49,888 nucleotides of DNA from Clostridia bacterium (GTDB lineage: Bacteria > Bacillota > Clostridia > TANB77 > CAG-508): positions 1 to 49,888 of the forward strand of contig JAFXOY010000083.1 of NCBI GenBank assembly GCA_017528375.1, given 5' to 3'. A program made the translations under genes and the position numbers. This document shows positions 41,652-49,888 of this stretch, one piece after another; positions within the stretch are counted from its first letter, which is position 1, and each line of letters starts with the position of its first letter. The notes beneath the pieces were generated by a model, which was given only the letters and a program-made list of their open reading frames with translations, did no database searches and was not told the DNA's origin.

Positions 41652-42404
41652 ATGAAAATAATATCATGGAATGTAGCAGGATTCAGAGCTTGTTTAAAAA
41701 AAGGATTTGATGAGTTTTTTAAAGAAATAGACGCAGATATATTTTGTATTCAAGAATCAAAAGTATTACCAGAACAATTTGATTATCATCCAGAAGGATA
41801 TTATCAATATTTAAACCCTGCCGAGAAAAAAGGGTATTCAGGAACACTAGTATATACAAGAATTAAACCAATAAATATAACATATGGAATGGGAATAGAA
41901 GAGCATGACCATGAAGGAAGAATAATAACAATGGAATTTGAAAAATGCTATGTTATAACAGTATATGTTCCAAATGTAAAAAGAGAATTAACAAGATTAG
42001 ATTATAGAATGGAATGGGAAGATGATTTTAGAAAATATCTAAAAAAACTAGAAAAAAACAAACCTGTAGTAGTTTGCGGAGATCTAAATGTAGCTCATGA
42101 GGAAATAGATTTAAAAAATGCTAAAGCCAACAGAGGAAATGCAGGCTTTACAGACGAAGAAAGGGCTAAATTTACTGAATTATTAGATGCAGGTTTTATA
42201 GATACATTCAGATATTTTAACCCAGAAAAAGAGCAATATTCATGGTGGAGTTATATGGGACATGCTAGAGAAAAGAATATTGGCTGGAGAATAGATTATT
42301 TTGTTGTATCAAAAAGCATAATAAACAATGTTTCAAATGCTATGATTTATGATGAAGTTCAAGGCAGTGATCACTGTCCTGTAAGATTGGATGTAGAATT
42401 ATAA
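41652..42404 (+). CDS. Exodeoxyribonuclease III (ExoA/XthA), AP endonuclease
   Basis: 250 aa, standard size. Motifs: ISWNVAGFRA (metal-binding Asn), CIQESK (Glu), VCGDLNVAHEEIDL (Asp/Asn), and the catalytic end GSDHCPV (Asp/His). It cuts at abasic sites and removes 3' blocking groups. ATG 41652 follows AAAGGAGC by 7 nt; the frame is open back to 41448 through the tRNA terminator and a GGGGACGG repeat, which is not coding. It ends just before another composite repeat. Confidence 0.95.
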   Translation: MKIISWNVAGFRACLKKGFDEFFKEIDADIFCIQESKVLPEQFDYHPEGYYQYLNPAEKKGYSGTLVYTRIKPINITYGMGIEEHDHEGRIITMEFEKCYVITVYVPNVKRELTRLDYRMEWEDDFRKYLKKLEKNKPVVVCGDLNVAHEEIDLKNAKANRGNAGFTDEERAKFTELLDAGFIDTFRYFNPEKEQYSWWSYMGHAREKNIGWRIDYFVVSKSIINNVSNAMIYDEVQGSDHCPVRLDVEL

Positions 42405-42409
42405 GATGA

Positions 42410-42500
42410 CACATTTGGGGACGGACTCATTTTGGGTCAAAAATGTCCCAAAATGAGTCCGTCCCGGAATGGGGCATTTTTGACACAAAGAGGGACGGTC
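42410..42500 (+). repeat. Composite GGGGACGG repeat with perfect 19-bp hairpin
   Basis: GGGACGGACTCATTTTGGG (42418-42436) pairs perfectly with CCCAAAATGAGTCCGTCCC (42447-42465). A second unit, GGCATTTTTGACACAAAGAGGGACGGTC, ends at 42500. It separates the exonuclease III gene from the glycosyltransferase gene. Confidence 0.9.
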
Positions 42501-42542
42501 TTTAGAAAATCTAAAAATATAGAAACAAATGAGGTGATGGAT

Positions 42543-43271
42543 GTGAAAAGAATTATAAAAATAGTTTTATTAAGCGCATTAGCACTAATTCTAACGGTTG
42601 CAATTTATATATGTGGTAGTGGATATGTTTTTTATAAAAATGCAGTGAAAGATGCAAGTTTAGAAGATAAAGTTATACAAATTCAACAATCTGAAAAGTT
42701 TACTCCAATAGATGAGATACCAGAGAATTATAAAAATGCAGTTATAGCGGTAGAAGACCATAGATTTAAAGAACATGGTGCGGTTGATTTTATTGGGATT
42801 ACAAGAGCTTTAACATCTGATATAAAGAATAAAGGTTTAGTTGAAGGCGGAAGTACAATAACGCAGCAAGTAATTAAGAATTTATATTTTATGAAAGAAG
42901 ATACTAAAAGTGATTCCTTGGACAGAAAAGTTGCAGAAATCATTATGGGAATTCAGCTAGAGAAAAAATACTCTAAAGATCAAATCTTTGAGCTATATGC
43001 AAATAATATTTATTTTGGAGATGGATACTATAATATAAGAGATGCTGCTAAAGGGTATTTCGGAAAAGAACCATCAGAATTGAATCTATATGAATGTACA
43101 CTACTAGCAGGAATTCCTAATGCACCAAGTGTGTATTCACCAAATGTTAATCCAGAATTGTCTAAAAAAAGACATGCAAAAGTTATAAGATCTATGGTTA
43201 AATATGGATATTTAACACAGGAGCAAGCAGATAGTATAAATCTTAATGAATATTACGAAAAAAATAATTAG
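42543..43271 (+). CDS. Monofunctional peptidoglycan glycosyltransferase (GT51)
   Basis: 242 aa from GTG 42543, 6 nt after GAGGTG; ATG 42537 would touch the site and the frame upstream is repeat-derived. One membrane anchor (about 4-27) precedes the GT51 domain: catalytic Glu71 in VEDHRFKEHGAVD, GGSTITQQVIKNLYF (102-116), RKVAEIIMGIQLEKKYSKDQIFELYANNIYFG. There is no transpeptidase domain, so it polymerises lipid II only. Its neighbours are repeats and the suf regulator, with no cell wall operon. Confidence 0.9.
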   Translation: MKRIIKIVLLSALALILTVAIYICGSGYVFYKNAVKDASLEDKVIQIQQSEKFTPIDEIPENYKNAVIAVEDHRFKEHGAVDFIGITRALTSDIKNKGLVEGGSTITQQVIKNLYFMKEDTKSDSLDRKVAEIIMGIQLEKKYSKDQIFELYANNIYFGDGYYNIRDAAKGYFGKEPSELNLYECTLLAGIPNAPSVYSPNVNPELSKKRHAKVIRSMVKYGYLTQEQADSINLNEYYEKNN

Positions 43272-43299
43272 GGAAAAATTTTAAAAATACTTAAAAATA

Positions 43300-43323
43300 G
43301 CCACTTTTATATTGACAAAGTGG
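43300..43323 (+). terminator. Hairpin overlapping the regulator promoter, possible terminator
   Basis: GCCACTTT (43300-43307) pairs with AAAGTGGT (43317-43324) around TATATTGAC. The downstream arm touches the -35 box of the next promoter. No long T-run follows, so termination is uncertain. Confidence 0.4.
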
Positions 43324-43340
43324 TTATTTCATATTATAAT
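43313..43340 (+). promoter_or_regulatory. Sigma-A promoter of the suf operon
   Basis: TTGACA (43313-43318) and TATAAT (43335-43340), both perfect, with 16 nt spacing. Confidence 0.85.
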
Positions 43341-43356
43341 GTTAGCCAAGGTTAAC
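43341..43356. promoter_or_regulatory. DtxR-like operator palindrome at the suf promoter
   Basis: GTTAGCCAAGGTTAAC is an inverted repeat (GTTAGCC/GGTTAAC, one mismatch) resembling the half-sites of DtxR/IdeR boxes (TTAGGTTAGCCTAACCTAA). It begins at the base after the -10, so a bound protein would block initiation. It is 22 nt before the regulator's start. Confidence 0.65.
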
Positions 43357-43377
43357 AAAAATGAAAGGACGAGGTAT

Positions 43378-43830
43378 ATGATATCGAAATCTTTGGAAGA
43401 ATATTTAAAAACAATGTATATTTTAAAACAAAAAAATGGAAATATACGTGTTACAGATATAGCAGAAAAAATGAATTGCTCCAAAGCTAGCGTAAATAAG
43501 GCAATAAACAACCTAAAAGATAACGGATTAGTTAATTATGAAACGTATGGTGCAATAGAAATGACTGCTAAAGGTATAGATTTAGCACAAAAAATTATTG
43601 AAAGTTATGACATAGTTTTCGTGTTTTTAAAAGATGTTCTAGGAATGGAAACTGAAAAAGCTGAAGAAGAAGCTGAAAATATGAAAACATCAATGTCTGA
43701 TGAAACAATAAATAAATTAGCTAAATATGTTCATCAGGTATTAGGTTTAAGAAACTTAAATTGTAATTATGATGTTAATCAAGAGAAATGTAGACAATGT
43801 ATAAAAAGAAAGGAAAATAAAAATGAGTAA
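43378..43830 (+). CDS. DtxR-family transcriptional regulator with Cys-rich C-terminus, probable suf regulator
   Basis: 150 aa from ATG 43378 (site GGACGAGG); the longer frame to 43312 runs through the promoter. A winged helix (about 5-65; DIAEKMNCSKASVNKAINNLKDNGLV) leads to a dimerisation domain with the DtxR pattern ...DVLGM...AEEEAENMKTSMSDETI. By motif alignment the usual metal ligands are changed: DtxR His79 to Tyr77, Glu83 to Phe81, Cys102 to Glu100, Glu105 to Lys103, His106 to Thr104. The tail has Cys129, Cys138 and Cys141 (CX8CX2C). It overlaps sufC by 8 nt. An Fe-S or thiol signal is a plausible replacement for direct Fe/Mn sensing, but this is inference. Confidence 0.85.
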   Translation: MISKSLEEYLKTMYILKQKNGNIRVTDIAEKMNCSKASVNKAINNLKDNGLVNYETYGAIEMTAKGIDLAQKIIESYDIVFVFLKDVLGMETEKAEEEAENMKTSMSDETINKLAKYVHQVLGLRNLNCNYDVNQEKCRQCIKRKENKNE

Positions 43831-44563
43831 TAAATTATTAGAAATCAAAAATTTAAATGTAAATGCAGAAGAAAAACAAATTCTAAAAGGAATAGATTTA
43901 ACAATTAATAAAGGAGAAATTCATGTTATTATGGGACCTAATGGTTCAGGAAAAACTACAACCGCAAATGCTATTTTAAATAATCCAGCTTATACTAAAA
44001 CTGGGGGAAGTATAGTATTTGATGGGGAAGATATAACAGATTTAAAAACAGATGAAATTGCTAGAAAAGGTGTATTTATGTCTTTCCAATTGCCAGAAGA
44101 AATACCAGGTGTATCTGTTGCTAATTTCTTGAAATACGCAAAAAATAAAGTTACTGGAAAGCCAGTTAAGATATTTCAATTTAAAGATGAATTAAAAAAA
44201 TATATGGAAGATTTAAATATGAATCCAGAGAATATTGAAAGAAGCTTAAATGTCGGATTTTCAGGTGGAGAAAAGAAGAAAAACGAAATTCTTCAAATGC
44301 TTGTGTTAAATCCAAAGTTGGCTATTCTAGATGAAACAGATTCAGGATTAGATGTTGATGCGGTTAAGACTGTATCTAAAGGTATTGAAATGTTTAAGAA
44401 TGATGAAAATGCAGTTTTAATTATTACTCATAATATGAGAATTTTGGAAAATTTGAAAGTTGATTATGTACATGTTTTAATTGATGGAAAAATTGTTACA
44501 ACTGGCGGAGATGAGATTATTAAAGATATTGAGGAGAATGGATTTAGTAAATATAGAAAATAA
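43823..44563 (+). CDS. sufC: Fe-S cluster assembly ATPase SufC
   Basis: 246 aa ABC-type ATPase. Walker A GPNGSGKT (38-45), Q-loop MSFQLPEEIPGV, signature FSGGEKKK (146-153), Walker B LAILDE (166-171), and the SufC-typical ETDSGLDVDAV. It powers the SufBCD scaffold. It begins inside the last codons of the regulator (ATGAGTAA), and the suf genes follow in the order C, B, D, S, U usual for Clostridia. Between it and sufB lies a minus-strand small gene. Confidence 0.97.
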   Translation: MSNKLLEIKNLNVNAEEKQILKGIDLTINKGEIHVIMGPNGSGKTTTANAILNNPAYTKTGGSIVFDGEDITDLKTDEIARKGVFMSFQLPEEIPGVSVANFLKYAKNKVTGKPVKIFQFKDELKKYMEDLNMNPENIERSLNVGFSGGEKKKNEILQMLVLNPKLAILDETDSGLDVDAVKTVSKGIEMFKNDENAVLIITHNMRILENLKVDYVHVLIDGKIVTTGGDEIIKDIEENGFSKYRK

Positions 44564-44566
44564 AAG

Positions 44567-44587
44567 AACCGGAGAAATTCTCCGGTT
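44567..44587 (-). terminator. Terminator of the small minus-strand gene
   Basis: AACCGGAGA pairs with TCTCCGGTT. On the minus strand it is followed by CTTTTATTTT; on the plus strand no T-run follows, so sufC messages can read through. Confidence 0.7.
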
Positions 44588-44594
44588 TGGGGTA

Positions 44595-44753
44595 TTAATC
44601 TTTTTCTTGATTTTGCTTCGATTGTTTTAATTGATTGGCAATATCCCGTAACAGTGTGTTAGTTTCATCAAGTTGGCTAGATATTGTGGCAAAACCTATG
44701 ACTGAAATAATACATAGGGCAAAAAGAAAGAGCCAAATGATTAGATAATCCAT
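44595..44753 (-). CDS. Small single-helix membrane protein inside the suf operon
   Basis: 52 aa, from ATG 44753 after a strong site, AGGAGGG, 8 nt upstream, to TAA 44595. One hydrophobic helix (residues about 3-24, IIWLFLFALCIISVIGFA) is followed by an amphipathic, charged tail (SSQLDETNTLLRDIANQLKQS) that looks coiled-coil. No family is recognised. It is transcribed opposite to suf, ends at its own terminator, and its codons (CTC, CGG, GGC) differ from its neighbours. It may be a later insertion. Confidence 0.65.
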   Translation of the reverse strand: MDYLIIWLFLFALCIISVIGFATISSQLDETNTLLRDIANQLKQSKQNQEKD

Positions 44754-44842
44754 AAGATAACCCTCCTAAAAAATAGTATAATTATTATATCATAAAAATA
44801 ATAAAAAAGCAAATAATGAATGAAAAAGAAAGGAATTCTAAA

Positions 44843-46243
44843 ATGGCAAAAACTCAATTAGAAGAACTAAATAGAAATATTTATGACATAAAAAATAAAG
44901 ATGACTACGATTACAAAATTCAAAAGGGTATAACAAAAGAAATCGTAGAAGAAATTTCAAAGCAAAAAAATGATCCAGATTGGATGCGAGAAATAAGATT
45001 AAAAGCTTTGGAAACATATAATAAATTAGAACTTCCTACATGGGGGCCTGATTTATCTGAATTGAATATGGATGAGATTGCAACTTATGTACGTCCAAAG
45101 ACTAAGTTAAACAGTTCTTGGGATGATGTTCCAGAAGATATAAAAAATACTTTTGATAAATTAGGAATTCCAGAAGCGGAAAGAACTTCTTTAGCAGGTG
45201 TTGGAGCTCAATATGATTCAGAAGTTGTATATCACAGTATGAAAGAAGAATTGTTAAAACAAGGTGTTATTTATACAGACATGGAAACAGCTGTAAGAGA
45301 ATATCCTGAAATTGTAAAAGAGCATTTTATGAAATGTGTGCCAATAAATGACCACAAATTTGTTGCATTACATGCTGCAGTATGGTCAGGTGGTTCATTT
45401 GTATATATTCCAAAAGGTGTTAAACTAGAAATGCCTTTACAATCATATTTTAGATTAAATTCACCTGAATCTGGTCAATTCGAACATACTTTAATCATAG
45501 TAGAAGAAGGTGCAAGTTTGCATTTTATAGAAGGATGTTCAGCACCTAAATATAATAAGGTAAACTTACATGCTGGATGTGTTGAATTATACGTAAAGAA
45601 AAATGCATATTTACGTTATTCAACAATTGAAAACTGGTCAAAGAATATGATGAACTTAAATACTAAAAAAGCAATTGTAGAAGAAGGCGGACAAGTTGAT
45701 TGGGTAACTGGTTCATTCGGTTCTAAAATATCAATGTTATATCCATTAAGTATTCTTAACGGAAAAGGTGCTAAAACAGAATATACAGGAATCTCATTTG
45801 CAGGAGCAGGACAAAATCTAGATACAGGATTTAAAGTAATTCATAATGCACCAAATACATCAAGTGTTGTTAACGCTAAATCAATTTCAAAAAATGGTGG
45901 AAAATGTACGTATAGATCATTAGTTAGAATTACTGAAAATGCTCAAAATTCTAAGTCATCAGTATCTTGTGAATCATTGATGTTAGACGATTTTTCAGTA
46001 TCAGACACAATTCCAGTTAATGACATTAGAACAGATGAAGTTGAATTTTCTCATGAGGCTAAGATAGGGAAGATTTCTGATAAGACAATTTTCTATTTGA
46101 TGAGCAGAGGGTTATCTGAAGAAGATGCAAAAGCAATGATTGTTAGGGGATTTGCTTATCCTATATCAAAAGAATTGCCTGGTGAGTATGCAGTTGAGAT
46201 GAACAATTTGATTAATTTAGAGTTAGAGGGAGCAATTGGATAA
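44843..46243 (+). CDS. sufB: Fe-S cluster assembly scaffold SufB
   Basis: 466 aa, usual SufB length, from ATG 44843 with AAAGGAA upstream (an upstream in-frame ATG at 44816 lacks a site). Conserved SufB features are LPTWGPDLSEL, SGGSFVYIPKGVKLEMPLQSYFR, EGASLHFIEGCSAP and the C-terminal FSHEAKIGKISDKTIFYLMSRGLSEEDA. It forms the scaffold with SufC and SufD on which the cluster is built. Distance to sufC is 279 nt because of the inserted small gene; readthrough or an internal promoter must serve it. Confidence 0.97.
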   Translation: MAKTQLEELNRNIYDIKNKDDYDYKIQKGITKEIVEEISKQKNDPDWMREIRLKALETYNKLELPTWGPDLSELNMDEIATYVRPKTKLNSSWDDVPEDIKNTFDKLGIPEAERTSLAGVGAQYDSEVVYHSMKEELLKQGVIYTDMETAVREYPEIVKEHFMKCVPINDHKFVALHAAVWSGGSFVYIPKGVKLEMPLQSYFRLNSPESGQFEHTLIIVEEGASLHFIEGCSAPKYNKVNLHAGCVELYVKKNAYLRYSTIENWSKNMMNLNTKKAIVEEGGQVDWVTGSFGSKISMLYPLSILNGKGAKTEYTGISFAGAGQNLDTGFKVIHNAPNTSSVVNAKSISKNGGKCTYRSLVRITENAQNSKSSVSCESLMLDDFSVSDTIPVNDIRTDEVEFSHEAKIGKISDKTIFYLMSRGLSEEDAKAMIVRGFAYPISKELPGEYAVEMNNLINLELEGAIG

Positions 46244-46251
46244 AAGAAAAA

Positions 46252-46271
46252 GGTCTGCTATTTAGCAGACC
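46252..46271 (-). terminator. Terminator of the minus-strand membrane gene after sufB
   Basis: GGTCTGCTA pairs with TAGCAGACC. On the minus strand CTTTTTCTTTT follows; on the plus strand there is no T-run, so sufB transcripts can pass. It overlaps the end of the gene at 46258-46611. Confidence 0.75.
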
Positions 46272-46611
46272 AAGAGTTGAAATCATATTTTTTGAGGATG
46301 TGTTCTTTGATTTTTTGAGAAAAATAATTTTTAATTTTCTCGCCGAAAAATACATCTGTAAGAATAAGAGTGAGTAGTATGAAAAACAGTATGTACCAGC
46401 CGTTTAACCACATAATGCTGAACTGGCCTATAAGAATAACAAAGGCAAGTATAAATTTGCAATTTTCATAGATCATATGTTTTCGCATTGAAGACTTATT
46501 TTCTCGTAGCATTGCAAGTTTTAATACATCCTCATTACTAAGTACTGAACTATAATTTGTAAGGATTTCATCAATCTCTTTAATAGTCAGTTCTTTCCGT
46601 GATGATTTCAT
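46258..46611 (-). CDS. Uncharacterised two-helix membrane protein inside the suf operon
   Basis: 117 aa from ATG 46611, after AAGGAGGG. A charged helical N-terminal half (1-50; MKSSRKELTIKEIDEIL) is followed by two transmembrane segments (about 52-68 and 71-88) and a basic tail (IKEHILKKYD). No family is recognised. It is transcribed against suf and splits sufB from sufD. The same arrangement of strong site, short membrane protein and one-way terminator is seen between sufC and sufB, so both may come from a similar insertion process. Confidence 0.7.
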   Translation of the reverse strand: MKSSRKELTIKEIDEILTNYSSVLSNEDVLKLAMLRENKSSMRKHMIYENCKFILAFVILIGQFSIMWLNGWYILFFILLTLILTDVFFGEKIKNYFSQKIKEHILKKYDFNSWSAK

Positions 46612-46697
46612 TATAATCCCTCCTTAAAGGATTTTATTAATGAATTGATATTAACATGAAATAAATATAAAGTCAATAATATAGAAAGGAAAGCAAG

Positions 46698-47762
46698 ATG
46701 AATAACTTAAAATTAAATGAAACACCAGTTAGAACTTCAAAAAGTTTTAGAATTAACAATATAAAAATTGAAGATTTAGAACTACCTGAAAAGCTTGAAG
46801 AATTCAAAAATGTCAAAGTTTCAGAAATGGGTTCTAAAATAACAATAAGTTCAGAAATTCAAAAAGCTGAATTGAAATACGGATTAGGTGATGTATTTAC
46901 AAATCAGGTGAATGAAGCATCTAATTACAAAGCTAGTATTGTAGTTGATTGTAAAACGCACAAAGAAGTAGAAATGGATTTTAAATTAGATAAAACTAAT
47001 TCTAATTTAGTTGAAAACATAGAAATTACAGCAAATGAAAATACAAAATCAACTATAATTTTAAAATATGAAACTGATGAAGATGTAAAAGCATATCATA
47101 ATGCAGTAATTCGCGCAAAAGCTAAGAAAAATGCAGTTTTAAATGTAATTATAGTTAATTTGATGAACGAACTATCTAACAATCTCATGGCAATTCAAAA
47201 TGAATTTGAAGAAGATTCTAAAATAAACTATTGCATAATAGATTTTGGCGGAAAAAATAGTGTTACAAATTATTATTCAAACATATCAGGAGACGGAGCA
47301 GATAGTCAGTTAAATACAATTTATCTAGGTAAAAACGAGCAACGTTTTGATTTGAATTACATTGGCGAATTATATGGAAAAAAATCAAATATAGACATAG
47401 AGGTTCAAGGAGCTTTAAAAGACAACGCTAAAAAGAACTTTAAAGGAACAATTGATTTCAAAACAGGTTGTAAAAAAGCTAGAGGAAATGAAAATGAAAA
47501 TTGTATGCTTTTATCAGATAAAGCAAAATCAATAGCATTGCCAATGCTTTTATGCTCTGAAGAAGAAGTTGAAGGAAATCACAGTAGTTCAGCTGGTAAG
47601 ATTGGTGAGAAAGAATTGTTCTATATTATGAGTAGAGGTTTTGAATTAAAAGAAGCTATGAAATTAATGGTTAGAGCTAAGTTTAATAAAATCTTGGAAA
47701 TGGTAAAAAATGAAGAATTAAAGAAACAAATTCTTGAAGAAATTGATGATAGATTAGATTAA
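46698..47762 (+). CDS. sufD: Fe-S cluster assembly protein SufD
   Basis: 354 aa. A variable N-terminal part is followed by the SufBD beta-helix core and the conserved C-terminus NHSSSAGKIGEKELFYIMSRGFELKEAMKLMVRA, with the His residue of the SufBD interface. It is shorter and less conserved than SufB, as usual. The site AGAAAGGAAAG precedes ATG 46698. A GGGGACGG repeat lies between it and sufS. Confidence 0.93.
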   Translation: MNNLKLNETPVRTSKSFRINNIKIEDLELPEKLEEFKNVKVSEMGSKITISSEIQKAELKYGLGDVFTNQVNEASNYKASIVVDCKTHKEVEMDFKLDKTNSNLVENIEITANENTKSTIILKYETDEDVKAYHNAVIRAKAKKNAVLNVIIVNLMNELSNNLMAIQNEFEEDSKINYCIIDFGGKNSVTNYYSNISGDGADSQLNTIYLGKNEQRFDLNYIGELYGKKSNIDIEVQGALKDNAKKNFKGTIDFKTGCKKARGNENENCMLLSDKAKSIALPMLLCSEEEVEGNHSSSAGKIGEKELFYIMSRGFELKEAMKLMVRAKFNKILEMVKNEELKKQILEEIDDRLD

Positions 47763-47769
47763 CATAAAA

Positions 47770-47830
47770 ATGACACATTTGGGGACGGACTCAAAATGTG
47801 TCAAAAATGACACAAAGAGGGACGGTCTTA
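47770..47830 (+). repeat. Composite GGGGACGG repeat between sufD and sufS
   Basis: TGGGGACGGACTCAAAATGTG (47780-47800) and GAGGGACGGTCTT (47817-47829) flank TCAAAAATGACACAAA. The last base is 25 nt from the sufS start. The in-frame extension upstream of sufS (47798-47854) is derived from it. Confidence 0.88.
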
Positions 47831-47854
47831 ATTGGACAAAAGGAGGAAAGAACG

Positions 47855-49072
47855 ATGAACCAAAATGAAATAATAAAAGATTTTCCATTATTACAAAACA
47901 GAAAAATAGCATACTTGGACAGTGGAGCAACAACTCAAAAGCCAGTTCAAGTAATAGATGCAATAGATAAATTCTACGAAAATAATAATGCAAATCCACA
48001 TAGAGGTGCATATTCTTTAAGCATAGAAGCTACTGAGCAATATGAAAATACAAGAACAAAAATTGCAAATTTCATAAATGCTAAACACAGGGAAGAAATA
48101 ATATTCTCTAAAAATGCAACTGAAAGTTTGAATTTAATTGCATATTCATATGGATTAGATAATCTAAAAAAAGATGATGAAATTGTTCTTTCTATAATGG
48201 AACATCATTCTAATCTGGTACCATGGCAAAAAGTTAGCAAAACAACTGGTGCTAAATTAAACTATATGTATATGAATGATCAATTTGAGTTATCAGATGA
48301 AGAAATTGAAAGTAAGATTACAGACAAAACAAAAATAGTTGGAATCACTCATGTTTCAAATGTTTTAGGAACTATCAATAATGTTGAAAAGATTATCAAA
48401 TACGCTCATAAAAAAGGAGCGATTGTTATTGTAGATGCATCACAAAGTATTCCACATATGGAAATTGATGTTCAAAAATTAAATGCAGACTTTTTAGTTT
48501 TCTCAGGACATAAAATGTTAGCACCATTAGGAATTGGAGTTTTATATGGTAAAAAAGAATTGCTAAACAAAATGAACCCTTTCTTAATGGGTGGAGATAT
48601 GATAGAATATGTATATGAGCAAGATACCACTTTTGCACCATTACCAAATAAATTTGAAGCAGGAACACAAAATGTTGAAGGCGTTGTTGGATTAGGTGCA
48701 GCTATTGATTATATTAATAAAATTGGTTATGACAAAATAGCAGAAATAGAGAAAGAAGTTGTAGAATATGCTAGAGAAAAATTATCTAGTTTAGATTTTA
48801 TAACATTATATATGACTCCAAATAAAGAAAATCATCAAGCAGTTATATCATTTAATATTAACGGAGTTCACCCACATGATGTTGCAAGTATATTAGATAA
48901 TTACGGTGTGTGTGTACGTTCAGGGAATCACTGTGCACAGCCACTTATGAGATTTTTAGGAATTGATTCAACATGCAGGGCAAGTTTTTATTTCTACAAC
49001 ACAAAAGAAGACATAGAAAAACTTGTAGAAGCTTTGAAAAAAGCATATGATATGTTTAAAAAATATATGTAA
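47855..49072 (+). CDS. sufS: Cysteine desulfurase SufS (type II)
   Basis: 405 aa from ATG 47855 (site AGGAGGAAAG); the upstream frame is repeat sequence. PLP lysine is Lys220 (FSGHKMLAPLGIG), with the aromatic-ring His118 (EHHSN) and Asp194 (VDASQS). The active-site cysteine is Cys360 in VRSGNHCAQPLMR, typical of group II. It takes sulfur from cysteine and passes it to SufU and the SufBCD scaffold. It is followed 22 nt later by sufU. Confidence 0.97.
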   Translation: MNQNEIIKDFPLLQNRKIAYLDSGATTQKPVQVIDAIDKFYENNNANPHRGAYSLSIEATEQYENTRTKIANFINAKHREEIIFSKNATESLNLIAYSYGLDNLKKDDEIVLSIMEHHSNLVPWQKVSKTTGAKLNYMYMNDQFELSDEEIESKITDKTKIVGITHVSNVLGTINNVEKIIKYAHKKGAIVIVDASQSIPHMEIDVQKLNADFLVFSGHKMLAPLGIGVLYGKKELLNKMNPFLMGGDMIEYVYEQDTTFAPLPNKFEAGTQNVEGVVGLGAAIDYINKIGYDKIAEIEKEVVEYAREKLSSLDFITLYMTPNKENHQAVISFNINGVHPHDVASILDNYGVCVRSGNHCAQPLMRFLGIDSTCRASFYFYNTKEDIEKLVEALKKAYDMFKKYM

Positions 49073-49094
49073 ATAATAAAGAAAGGTGAAAATT

Positions 49095-49574
49095 GTGGAA
49101 GATTTAACAGATGTTTATAATGATTTAATTATGGAACATAGTATGAATTCATACAACAAAAAACAATTGGATAACGCAGATTTCTGCGAATTAGGGCATA
49201 ATCCAAATTGTGGTGACGAAATAACATTAGAAGTGAAAATGAATGGAAATGTAATAGAAGACATGGCATTTCACGGTCATGGATGTGCGATTTCTCAAGC
49301 ATCAACTTCTATTATGATAGATACATTAAAAGGTAAAACTATTGAAGAAGCAAAAGAAATTGTTAAAACATTTATAGAAATGATTAAAAGAGAAACAAAA
49401 AGTGAAGAAGAACTAAGAAAATTAGAAGATGCAATAGCATTTAAAAATATATCTAATATGCCTGCTAGAGTAAAATGTGCATTGCTTGCTTGGCATACAT
49501 TAGAAAATATTTTTGCACAGCTGGGGACGCGTCCCGACTGTGCAAATCGCACAACGGGGGACGGGTTAGATTAG
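49095..49574 (+). CDS. sufU: Sulfur transfer protein SufU with repeat-derived C-terminal extension
   Basis: 159 aa from GTG 49095, 6 nt after GAAAGGTG; GTG 49086 is inside that site. The zinc site is Cys39 and Asp41 (NCGDE), Cys64 (GHGCAISQAS) and Cys128 (VKCALLAW), as in Bacillus SufU. It accepts persulfide sulfur from SufS. Family members end at or shortly after HTLENIFA (about residue 141); here 18 further residues (QLGTRPDCAN...) come from a GGGGACGCGTC repeat that begins exactly there and carries the stop codon. Confidence 0.93.
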   Translation: MEDLTDVYNDLIMEHSMNSYNKKQLDNADFCELGHNPNCGDEITLEVKMNGNVIEDMAFHGHGCAISQASTSIMIDTLKGKTIEEAKEIVKTFIEMIKRETKSEEELRKLEDAIAFKNISNMPARVKCALLAWHTLENIFAQLGTRPDCANRTTGDGLD

Positions 49575-49632
49575 CTGATGTGTCCCTAGCTGTGCAAAAT
49601 GCACAGCGGGGACGCGTCCCCAATTGTGCAGA
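49514..49632 (+). repeat. GGGGACGCGTCCC repeat pair between sufU and mnmA
   Basis: Two palindromic units: GCACAGCTGGGGACGCGTCC... to ...GACTGTGC (49515-49543), and GCACAGCGGGGACGCGTCCCC... to TTGTGC (49601-49629), with a GGGGGACGG unit between. It resembles the GGGGACGG family but has GACGCGTC at the centre and TGCAC flanks. It supplies the last part of the sufU reading frame. Confidence 0.85.
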
Positions 49633-49643
49633 AAGGAGTAAAA

Positions 49644-49888
49644 ATGGAAAACAAGAAGGTTTTGTTAGGAATGAGTGGTGGAGTAGACAGCAGCGTTTCA
49701 GCACTACTTCTAAAAGAGCAAGGCTATGAAGTAATTGGTGCAACATTAGAGCTATTTTGTGGAAGCAGCTGTTGTAATATAAATACATATCTAGATGCAA
49801 AAAATGTATGTAATTCGCTAGGAATTCCTCATTTTACATACGATTACAAAGGTGATTTTAGAAAATATGTTATTGATGATTTCATTAA
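49644..49888 (+). CDS. mnmA: tRNA-specific 2-thiouridylase MnmA, N-terminal part (cut by window end)
   Basis: ATG 49644 follows AAAGGAG by 6 nt, and the frame runs to the window end (about 81 residues). MENKKVLLGMSGGVDSSVSA is the PP-loop ATP-binding motif of MnmA, then GYEVIGATLELFCGSSCC and DAKNVCNSLGIPHF. MnmA thiolates U34 of Lys, Glu and Gln tRNAs using sulfur from a desulfurase; its place right after sufSU fits that supply. The rest of the protein, including the catalytic cysteine, is beyond the window. Confidence 0.93.
   Translation, partial: MENKKVLLGMSGGVDSSVSALLLKEQGYEVIGATLELFCGSSCCNINTYLDAKNVCNSLGIPHFTYDYKGDFRKYVIDDFI

Follow-up and report, generated by a model that had tools for sequence, protein, structure and literature searches.

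A DtxR-fold regulator with a three-cysteine tail and a lost metal site is a candidate iron–sulfur cluster sensor at clostridial suf operons

What does a DtxR-type regulator sense when it stands at the head of an operon for iron–sulfur (Fe-S) cluster assembly? DtxR proteins are the textbook sensors of free metal, and the regulators of Fe-S biogenesis known to us belong to the Rrf2 and SufR groups. The question arises from a 49,888-nt stretch of DNA from a Clostridia bacterium (contig JAFXOY010000083.1; hereafter the window, meaning that whole stretch), in which an open reading frame (ORF) of 150 residues at 43378-43830 on the plus strand carries both Pfam domains of the DtxR fold and runs into a suf cluster. 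By comparing this protein, its promoter and its gene neighbours with those of its relatives we arrive at a best explanation, to which we give a probability of roughly 0.65: an autoregulated repressor of Fe-S assembly, built on the DtxR fold, that would sense a cluster liganded by cysteines and act as an analogue of IscR. The fold family, the loss of metal ligands, the invariance of the three cysteines, the presence and position of an operator, the linkage to Fe-S genes and the alternation with Rrf2 proteins can each be read from the sequences compared.

The winged-helix DNA-binding domain (residues 1-59; 43378-43554, plus strand) matches Fe_dep_repress (PF01325; 2.6e-15, 56.8 bits against a cut-off of 26), and the dimerisation domain (residues 63-119; 43564-43734, plus strand), whose metal site (Y77, E100, K103, T104) appears lost, matches Fe_dep_repr_C (PF02742; 5.3e-13, 49.2 bits against a cut-off of 27). 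A sequence-only reading of this DNA had proposed a DtxR-type winged helix and dimer domain in a 150-residue protein, and these scores bear it out. The same two domains are matched in all 103 members of the homologue alignment (A3; E<=0.001). The best NCBIfam hits are MntR models, far below cut-off (74 versus 153 bits), and the closest solved structures are MntR chains (6kta, 2.3e-14), aligned over residues 2-118. A search of viral contigs with the window protein returned no relative.

The regulator overlaps sufC by 8 nt, the sufC ATG lying at 43823, as that reading had stated; its range for the gene, 43313-43830, ends correctly, but the ORF begins at 43378 and position 43313 falls inside the -35 box. 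Downstream on the plus strand follow sufC (43823-44563; TIGR01978, 318.5 bits), sufB (44816-46243; TIGR01980, 718.3 bits), a sufD-like gene (46698-47762; SUFBD_core, with TIGR01981 at 179.5 bits, below the cut-off of 222), sufS (47858-49072; TIGR01979, 593.4 bits) and sufU (49086-49574; TIGR01994, 177.4 bits), all except the sufD-like gene scoring above cut-off. The cluster is twice interrupted by ORFs on the opposite strand. The first, of 52 residues (44595-44753, minus), lies in the gap from sufC to sufB; its N-terminus is hydrophobic, it has an AGGAGGG that resembles a ribosome-binding site, and a terminator-like hairpin (44587-44567, minus) follows it. The second (46258-46611, minus), with a hydrophobic product of 117 residues, occupies the gap from sufB to the sufD-like gene and has its own terminator-like hairpin at 46271-46252. 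An Rfam scan of 42000-49888 at gathering thresholds gave no match.

Were the protein simply a metal-dependent DtxR/MntR regulator whose ligands have diverged, it would sense Fe2+ or Mn2+ and stand at suf as a response to iron shortage. The metal ligands of MntR, which we take to be D8, E11, H77, E99, E102 and H103, align to E8, K11, Y77, E100, K103 and T104 of the window protein, and a second alignment, of canonical relatives with E. coli MntR, places the ligands in the same columns. The earlier mapping onto DtxR (Y77, F81, E100, K103, T104) agrees with the MntR alignment, and in no alignment made do the homologues at suf loci keep the canonical ligands, whose retention would have counted against the proposal. 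Lysine occupies position 11 in 89/89 and position 103 in 90/90 suf-linked homologues, and both lysines are invariant in all 108 proteins that carry the cysteine tail described below. Position 77 is Tyr or Phe in each of the 96 members of the first tailed class; the second tailed class (n=12), with H77 in nine and either His (six) or Tyr (six) at position 104, looks intermediate in ligand state. Judged from the same columns, untailed relatives retain the metal ligands, the untailed bin of 24, which includes one cut tailed protein misplaced there (L034), having E11 in 19, H77 in 20, E103 in 19 and H104 in 21. Since two ligand glutamates have become fixed lysines, the metal site appears changed beyond mere drift, and on its sequence the window protein, though of DtxR fold, is not classed with the metal-dependent DtxR/MntR regulators.

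The residual case for such a metal sensor lies in the Pfam domain scores, in the persistence of E8 and E100, in the histidines of the second tailed class (H77 in 9/12, H104 in 6/12) and in its genome having no PF02742 protein besides the window regulator. Set against the two lysines shared by all 108 tailed proteins and the replacement of H77 by Tyr or Phe throughout the first class (96 of 96), this makes a metal sensor very improbable. The genome moreover encodes a FUR-family protein, which, together with the lack of a second PF02742 protein, means that free iron is probably sensed elsewhere than by the window regulator. Two motif-less relatives (L047, 3512-3889, minus; L048, 3541-3954, plus) carry an ISCHT motif just beyond the former ligand positions, and in L048, which adjoins iscS-iscU, the operator is present as well, together with a short tail reading NCDRTC; these ISCHT regulators are possibly another sensor variant.

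Beyond the dimerisation domain the window protein bears a tail of the form C129-X8-C138-X2-C141 (43762-43800, plus strand; codons 43762-43764, 43789-43791 and 43798-43800), exactly the three cysteines noted earlier. Its conservation was scored in 113 distinct homologues drawn from loci L001-L130 and grouped by sufC neighbourhood before the motif was scored. sufC lies directly downstream of 91 of them, and 90 of these 91 have the motif, the remaining one (L049) being frame-broken with the motif in its second piece; the cysteines are thus conserved in 90/90 intact suf-linked homologues. A genome scan, which kept the best 80 of 518 confirmed loci, found the motif in 80/80 of these and sufC in 75/80; some of its genomes are also in the other set of relatives, so the final counts are of distinct proteins.

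The sequence-only reading had asked whether the motif is conserved only beside suf. It is conserved there, but it also occurs beside iscS-iscU, beside a SufC/SufB-like pair and beside mnmA, which makes the Fe-S reading wider and stronger. The tail is present in 16 of the 22 homologues that are not followed by sufC, and 15 of these 16 adjoin one of the gene sets just named, the sixteenth (L037) lying at a contig end: iscS-iscU in L039, L043 and L044; the pair of SufC-like ATPase and short SufB/D-like protein in L035, L036, L056, L091, L099 and L105, and in convergent orientation in L042; mnmA in L034, L038, L040, L041 and L055. Family models were used to check L036, L040, L043, L055 and L056, and the neighbours were assigned by inspection of ORF starts or weak tblastn matches (28-40%) in L039, L044 and L048 (iscS-iscU), in L034, L038 and L041 (mnmA) and in L035, L042, L091, L099 and L105 (SufC/SufB-like). 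The short SufB/D-like neighbour matches the SmsB and SufD models far below their cut-offs and is therefore labelled SMS-like. The six homologues without the motif are L031 (cut at a contig end), L045, L046, L047, L048 (at iscS-iscU) and L050 (at feoA and feoB by inspection).

Across the 108 tailed proteins C129, C138 and C141 are invariant, a count that is circular in that the group is defined by its cysteines, while many neighbouring residues vary; Y131 (104/108), D132 (103/108) and E136 (100/108) are also well kept. With three cysteines fixed in proteins encoded beside Fe-S genes, we regard an Fe-S cluster as the ligand that needs the fewest assumptions, its fourth ligand being left unfixed by the sequence, and such a cluster is probably the effector. 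Counting against it is the lack of an invariant fourth protein ligand: D132 is Asn in 5/108 and no fourth Cys or His is invariant. H119 was rejected as the fourth ligand, being absent in 2/96 of the first class and 12/12 of the second. CX8CX2C is, to our knowledge, not the spacing of any characterised Fe-S regulator, and the tail alone gave no match in the PDB at E<=10.

Zinc could equally occupy a three-cysteine site, CX2C with a third cysteine being common in zinc sites. The three cysteines, completed by Asp132, His119 or a partner residue, would then hold a structural zinc, and the effector would be a Suf protein partner, or there would be none and autorepression would be constitutive. To this idea the lack of an invariant fourth ligand is neutral, but the fixed cysteines coincide with the loss of the metal site and with Fe-S operons, and a structural zinc would presumably leave the regulator without an obvious signal; we consider it distinctly unlikely. 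The tail might instead be a thiol or persulfide switch, in which disulfide or polysulfide links track sulfide, persulfide or redox state. Three cysteines are able to form a disulfide switch, and every tailed context includes sulfur mobilisation or thiolation (sufS- or iscS-linked operons, mnmA); because mnmA encodes a thiolation enzyme, a sulfur signal would suit these surroundings almost equally well. SMS, for its part, is reported to use mineral sulfide (PMC12192291). On the other side, three cysteines, not two, are fixed in the 90 intact suf-linked homologues, and the regulator gene alternates with Rrf2/IscR-type proteins at suf (below), so that we hold a thiol switch to be unlikely.

The promoter, too, speaks for the preferred reading. 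In the window a -35 box TTGACA (43312-43317) and a -10 box TATAAT (43335-43340), separated by 17 nt, match the consensus at 12/12 positions and form the best site within 43000-49888. The 18-bp palindrome TGTTAGCCAAGGTTAACA (43340-43357) lies across the expected transcription start and shares one base, the last, with the -10 box. The earlier observation of a palindrome behind a perfect -10 box proves to describe a conserved operator: the core GTTA-N8-TAAC is found in 100 of 112 distinct upstream stretches (mean 0.5 and maximum 3 in 200 mononucleotide shuffles), namely in 97/105 of those whose protein has the cysteine motif and in 3/7 of those without (L031, L048, L049). In the 100 operator-bearing relatives the -35 box is exact in 93, the spacer is 17 nt in 93, and the -10 box abuts the core exactly in 86 and with one mismatch in 12.

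Eight stretches with the motif lack the core. L037, L038, L040 and L041 start 5-22 nt after the upstream gene and may therefore use its promoter; the extraction for L025 lacked the true start, and its upstream stretch is wrong; the operator of L128 has one base changed; and L042 and L044 have no core and no evident cause. In 44 of the 100 operator-bearing relatives, the window not among them, a second element, GTTA...AAAC, runs into the -35 box and precedes the main operator by 36 nt (53/100 when up to one mismatch is allowed in GTTA, against a background mean of 6.6% and maximum of 15%); it takes the form of GTTARCC fused to the -35 box and then AAAC, for example in L008, L011 and L012.

Within the genome of the window, whose assembly is 92% complete, the pattern matches exactly once, at the suf promoter. 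Further operator sites there are unsupported: when one mismatch is allowed, the two strands give 11 + 8 matches (counting the exact site), while a reversed control gives 14 + 9. The strict form, TGTTARCYNNNRYTAACA, occurs at 39 places in 37 of 96 relatives (reversed control, 11 strand hits) and is absent from 14 of 49 regulator-bearing genomes. Such a site could in principle belong to another factor, with the regulator and the operator both real and suf not controlled by the protein, and the protein's own binding to DNA is indeed an inference. Yet a DtxR-type regulator follows within 300 nt of 34 of the 39 strict sites (two of these regulators, L048 and L050, being untailed), and suf-bearing relatives with an Rrf2 protein and no DtxR type have a strict operator in one case, G089, and not at suf; an operator for another factor is hardly credible. 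Five strict sites stand away from the regulator: one inside an ORF (G050), one without a fitting gene (G089), one between two divergent ORFs (G091) and two at Fe-S promoters in G033.

In G033 the regulator itself adjoins mnmA, and exact operators are found on two other contigs, before iscS-iscU (L231, 1501-1518) and before a SufC-like gene (L244, 2190-2207), each behind TTGACA and a -10-like box. These unlinked sites tie the operator to Fe-S genes apart from the regulator, in one genome, and suggest a possible trans regulon. Alternation with Rrf2 proteins also counts in favour of an Fe-S regulator. Among the 40 relatives with SufC above cut-off, using a line of 90 bits for Rrf2 that we chose ourselves, 32 have the DtxR-type regulator, upstream of sufC in each, and no Rrf2 protein, seven have an Rrf2 protein only, none has both and G091 has neither, counts that are not independent, the genomes being related, so that p-values are unreliable and are given no weight. 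The Rrf2 gene immediately precedes sufC in G025, G029 and G058, lies about 5 kb from it in G083, G087 and G089, and is on another contig in G066. Taken on these sequences, control of Fe-S assembly by the regulator is very probable.

Where the tail and the operator came from can be approached through untailed relatives. The operator core occurs in 4 of 18 untailed relatives from the class (L173-L190), namely L176, L179, L181 and L182, two of them with the full TGTTA...TAACA. Pfam confirms FeoA as a neighbour of L176, L179 and L181, and FeoB as a neighbour of L176; L182 has a FeoB-like ORF by eye. These canonical-ligand DtxR relatives at feo thus have the operator core in common with the cysteine-tailed regulators. 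In G052 an exact operator (L212, 1501-1518) lies 18 nt before a feoA-like ORF, beside the untailed regulator L050. Because the operator is found also with some canonical DtxR relatives that are linked to feo, the DNA recognition is probably ancestral, the sensor having changed while the DNA target stayed. The core is absent in the other 14 of the 18, including L187 and L190 with feo-like neighbours by eye, so an ancestral operator is not certain. A tree of 65 rows and 121 columns, from which the tail was left out, groups the first tailed class at 98% SH-aLRT; on this poorly resolved tree the tail takes four label changes, and one origin is compatible with it. In a scan of 391 genomes of the class the tail reads through without stops in 12 genomes among the matches listed, all from the same family or order, and in a scan of 398 genomes of the phylum, again among the matches listed, only the window's own genome reads through it; the seven other phylum rows that extend furthest past residue 130 without stops have no CX7-9CX2C motif.

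From these observations we infer that the protein binds DNA and represses, that it carries a cluster and of which type, in which direction control runs, and what the ancestral state was; together these would give the following mechanism. A DtxR-type dimer would bind TGTTARCC-nn-GGTTAACA over the transcription start, right after the -10 box, and so shut off its own gene and suf; since binding across the start should block RNA polymerase, autorepression is the default reading. The regulator would be deaf to free Fe2+ and Mn2+, its ligand site lost and two ligand glutamates now fixed lysines, and the three tail cysteines would hold a cluster, most likely [4Fe-4S], the fourth ligand coming from solvent, from Asp132 or from the partner subunit. 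While clusters are plentiful the holo form would repress; upon cluster loss through iron or sulfur shortage or oxygen, the apo form would release the DNA and suf would be made. The regulator's ancestor would have been a feo repressor that sensed iron and already acted through this operator, and an exchange of the sensor would have produced the present form.

Because the metal residues are lost, the three-cysteine tail is fixed and the target site heads Fe-S assembly genes, these uncultured gut bacteria probably have a repressor that measures cluster supply instead of iron. We lean, somewhat less firmly, towards a broader statement: that this is a new class of Fe-S sensor, in which a ferrous-iron site was exchanged for a C-terminal three-cysteine site, the operator of a feo-regulating ancestor was kept, and the regulator, standing in for IscR, took over SUF and ISC together with mnmA and a minimal system resembling SUF within one gut Clostridia order. 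If true, it would be a sensor exchange made by nature with fold and operator unchanged, and would show how an iron repressor can be redirected in bacteria to cluster supply; it would also predict the control of Fe-S assembly in many uncultured gut bacteria that lack IscR at suf.

How does this regulator stand beside the known systems? Our search of open-licence PMC papers found no published description of a DtxR-fold Fe-S sensor or regulator, and term searches within two SMS papers returned no mention of DtxR or IscR (PMC12192291, PMC12442378). A methanogen DtxR is discussed as a Feo regulator in another paper (PMC8516115). With DtxR, MntR and IdeR the window regulator has in common both Pfam domains, a palindromic operator and an autoregulated placement, and in one alignment it shares 36-45% identity with clostridial relatives of the canonical kind and 28% with E. 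coli MntR. It differs from them in its substituted ligands, the invariant K11 and K103 and the CX8CX2C tail, and in standing at Fe-S assembly genes, whereas they stand at metal transport genes. SufR of cyanobacteria and actinobacteria, a repressor of a family other than DtxR, is similar in having a winged helix, a place at the head of suf and C-terminal cysteines; no SufR model is among the 25 matches listed of the window protein's 38 NCBIfam matches.

The closest parallels in role are Rrf2 proteins, from which the window protein is separated by fold: PF02082 reaches 23.9 bits against a cut-off of 30, over residues 3-53 only. It resembles IscR in position and presumed role, Rrf2 genes taking the same operon-head place in G025, G029 and G058, and, as expected of a regulator that works like Rrf2, IscR or RisR, it has sufC downstream in 91/113 homologues and an operator at the promoter; the cysteine motifs differ, C-X5-C-X5-C in IscR against CX8CX2C here. 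RisR of Myxococcus xanthus, an Rrf2 protein, heads risR-sufBCDSUT, probably holds a [4Fe-4S] cluster through three cysteines (C92, C102, C108) and in its holo form represses isc and suf (PMC9973013); RirA is a further three-cysteine Rrf2 precedent. RisR and the window regulator are alike in being the head gene of a suf operon and in their three conserved cysteines, isc and suf targets and short palindromic operator, and they differ in fold and cysteine spacing, the cluster and repression of RisR being experimental and those proposed here derived from sequence. What the comparison suggests as old is thus the DtxR fold, which is kept, and as new the lost metal site, the cysteine site and the choice of Fe-S genes as targets.
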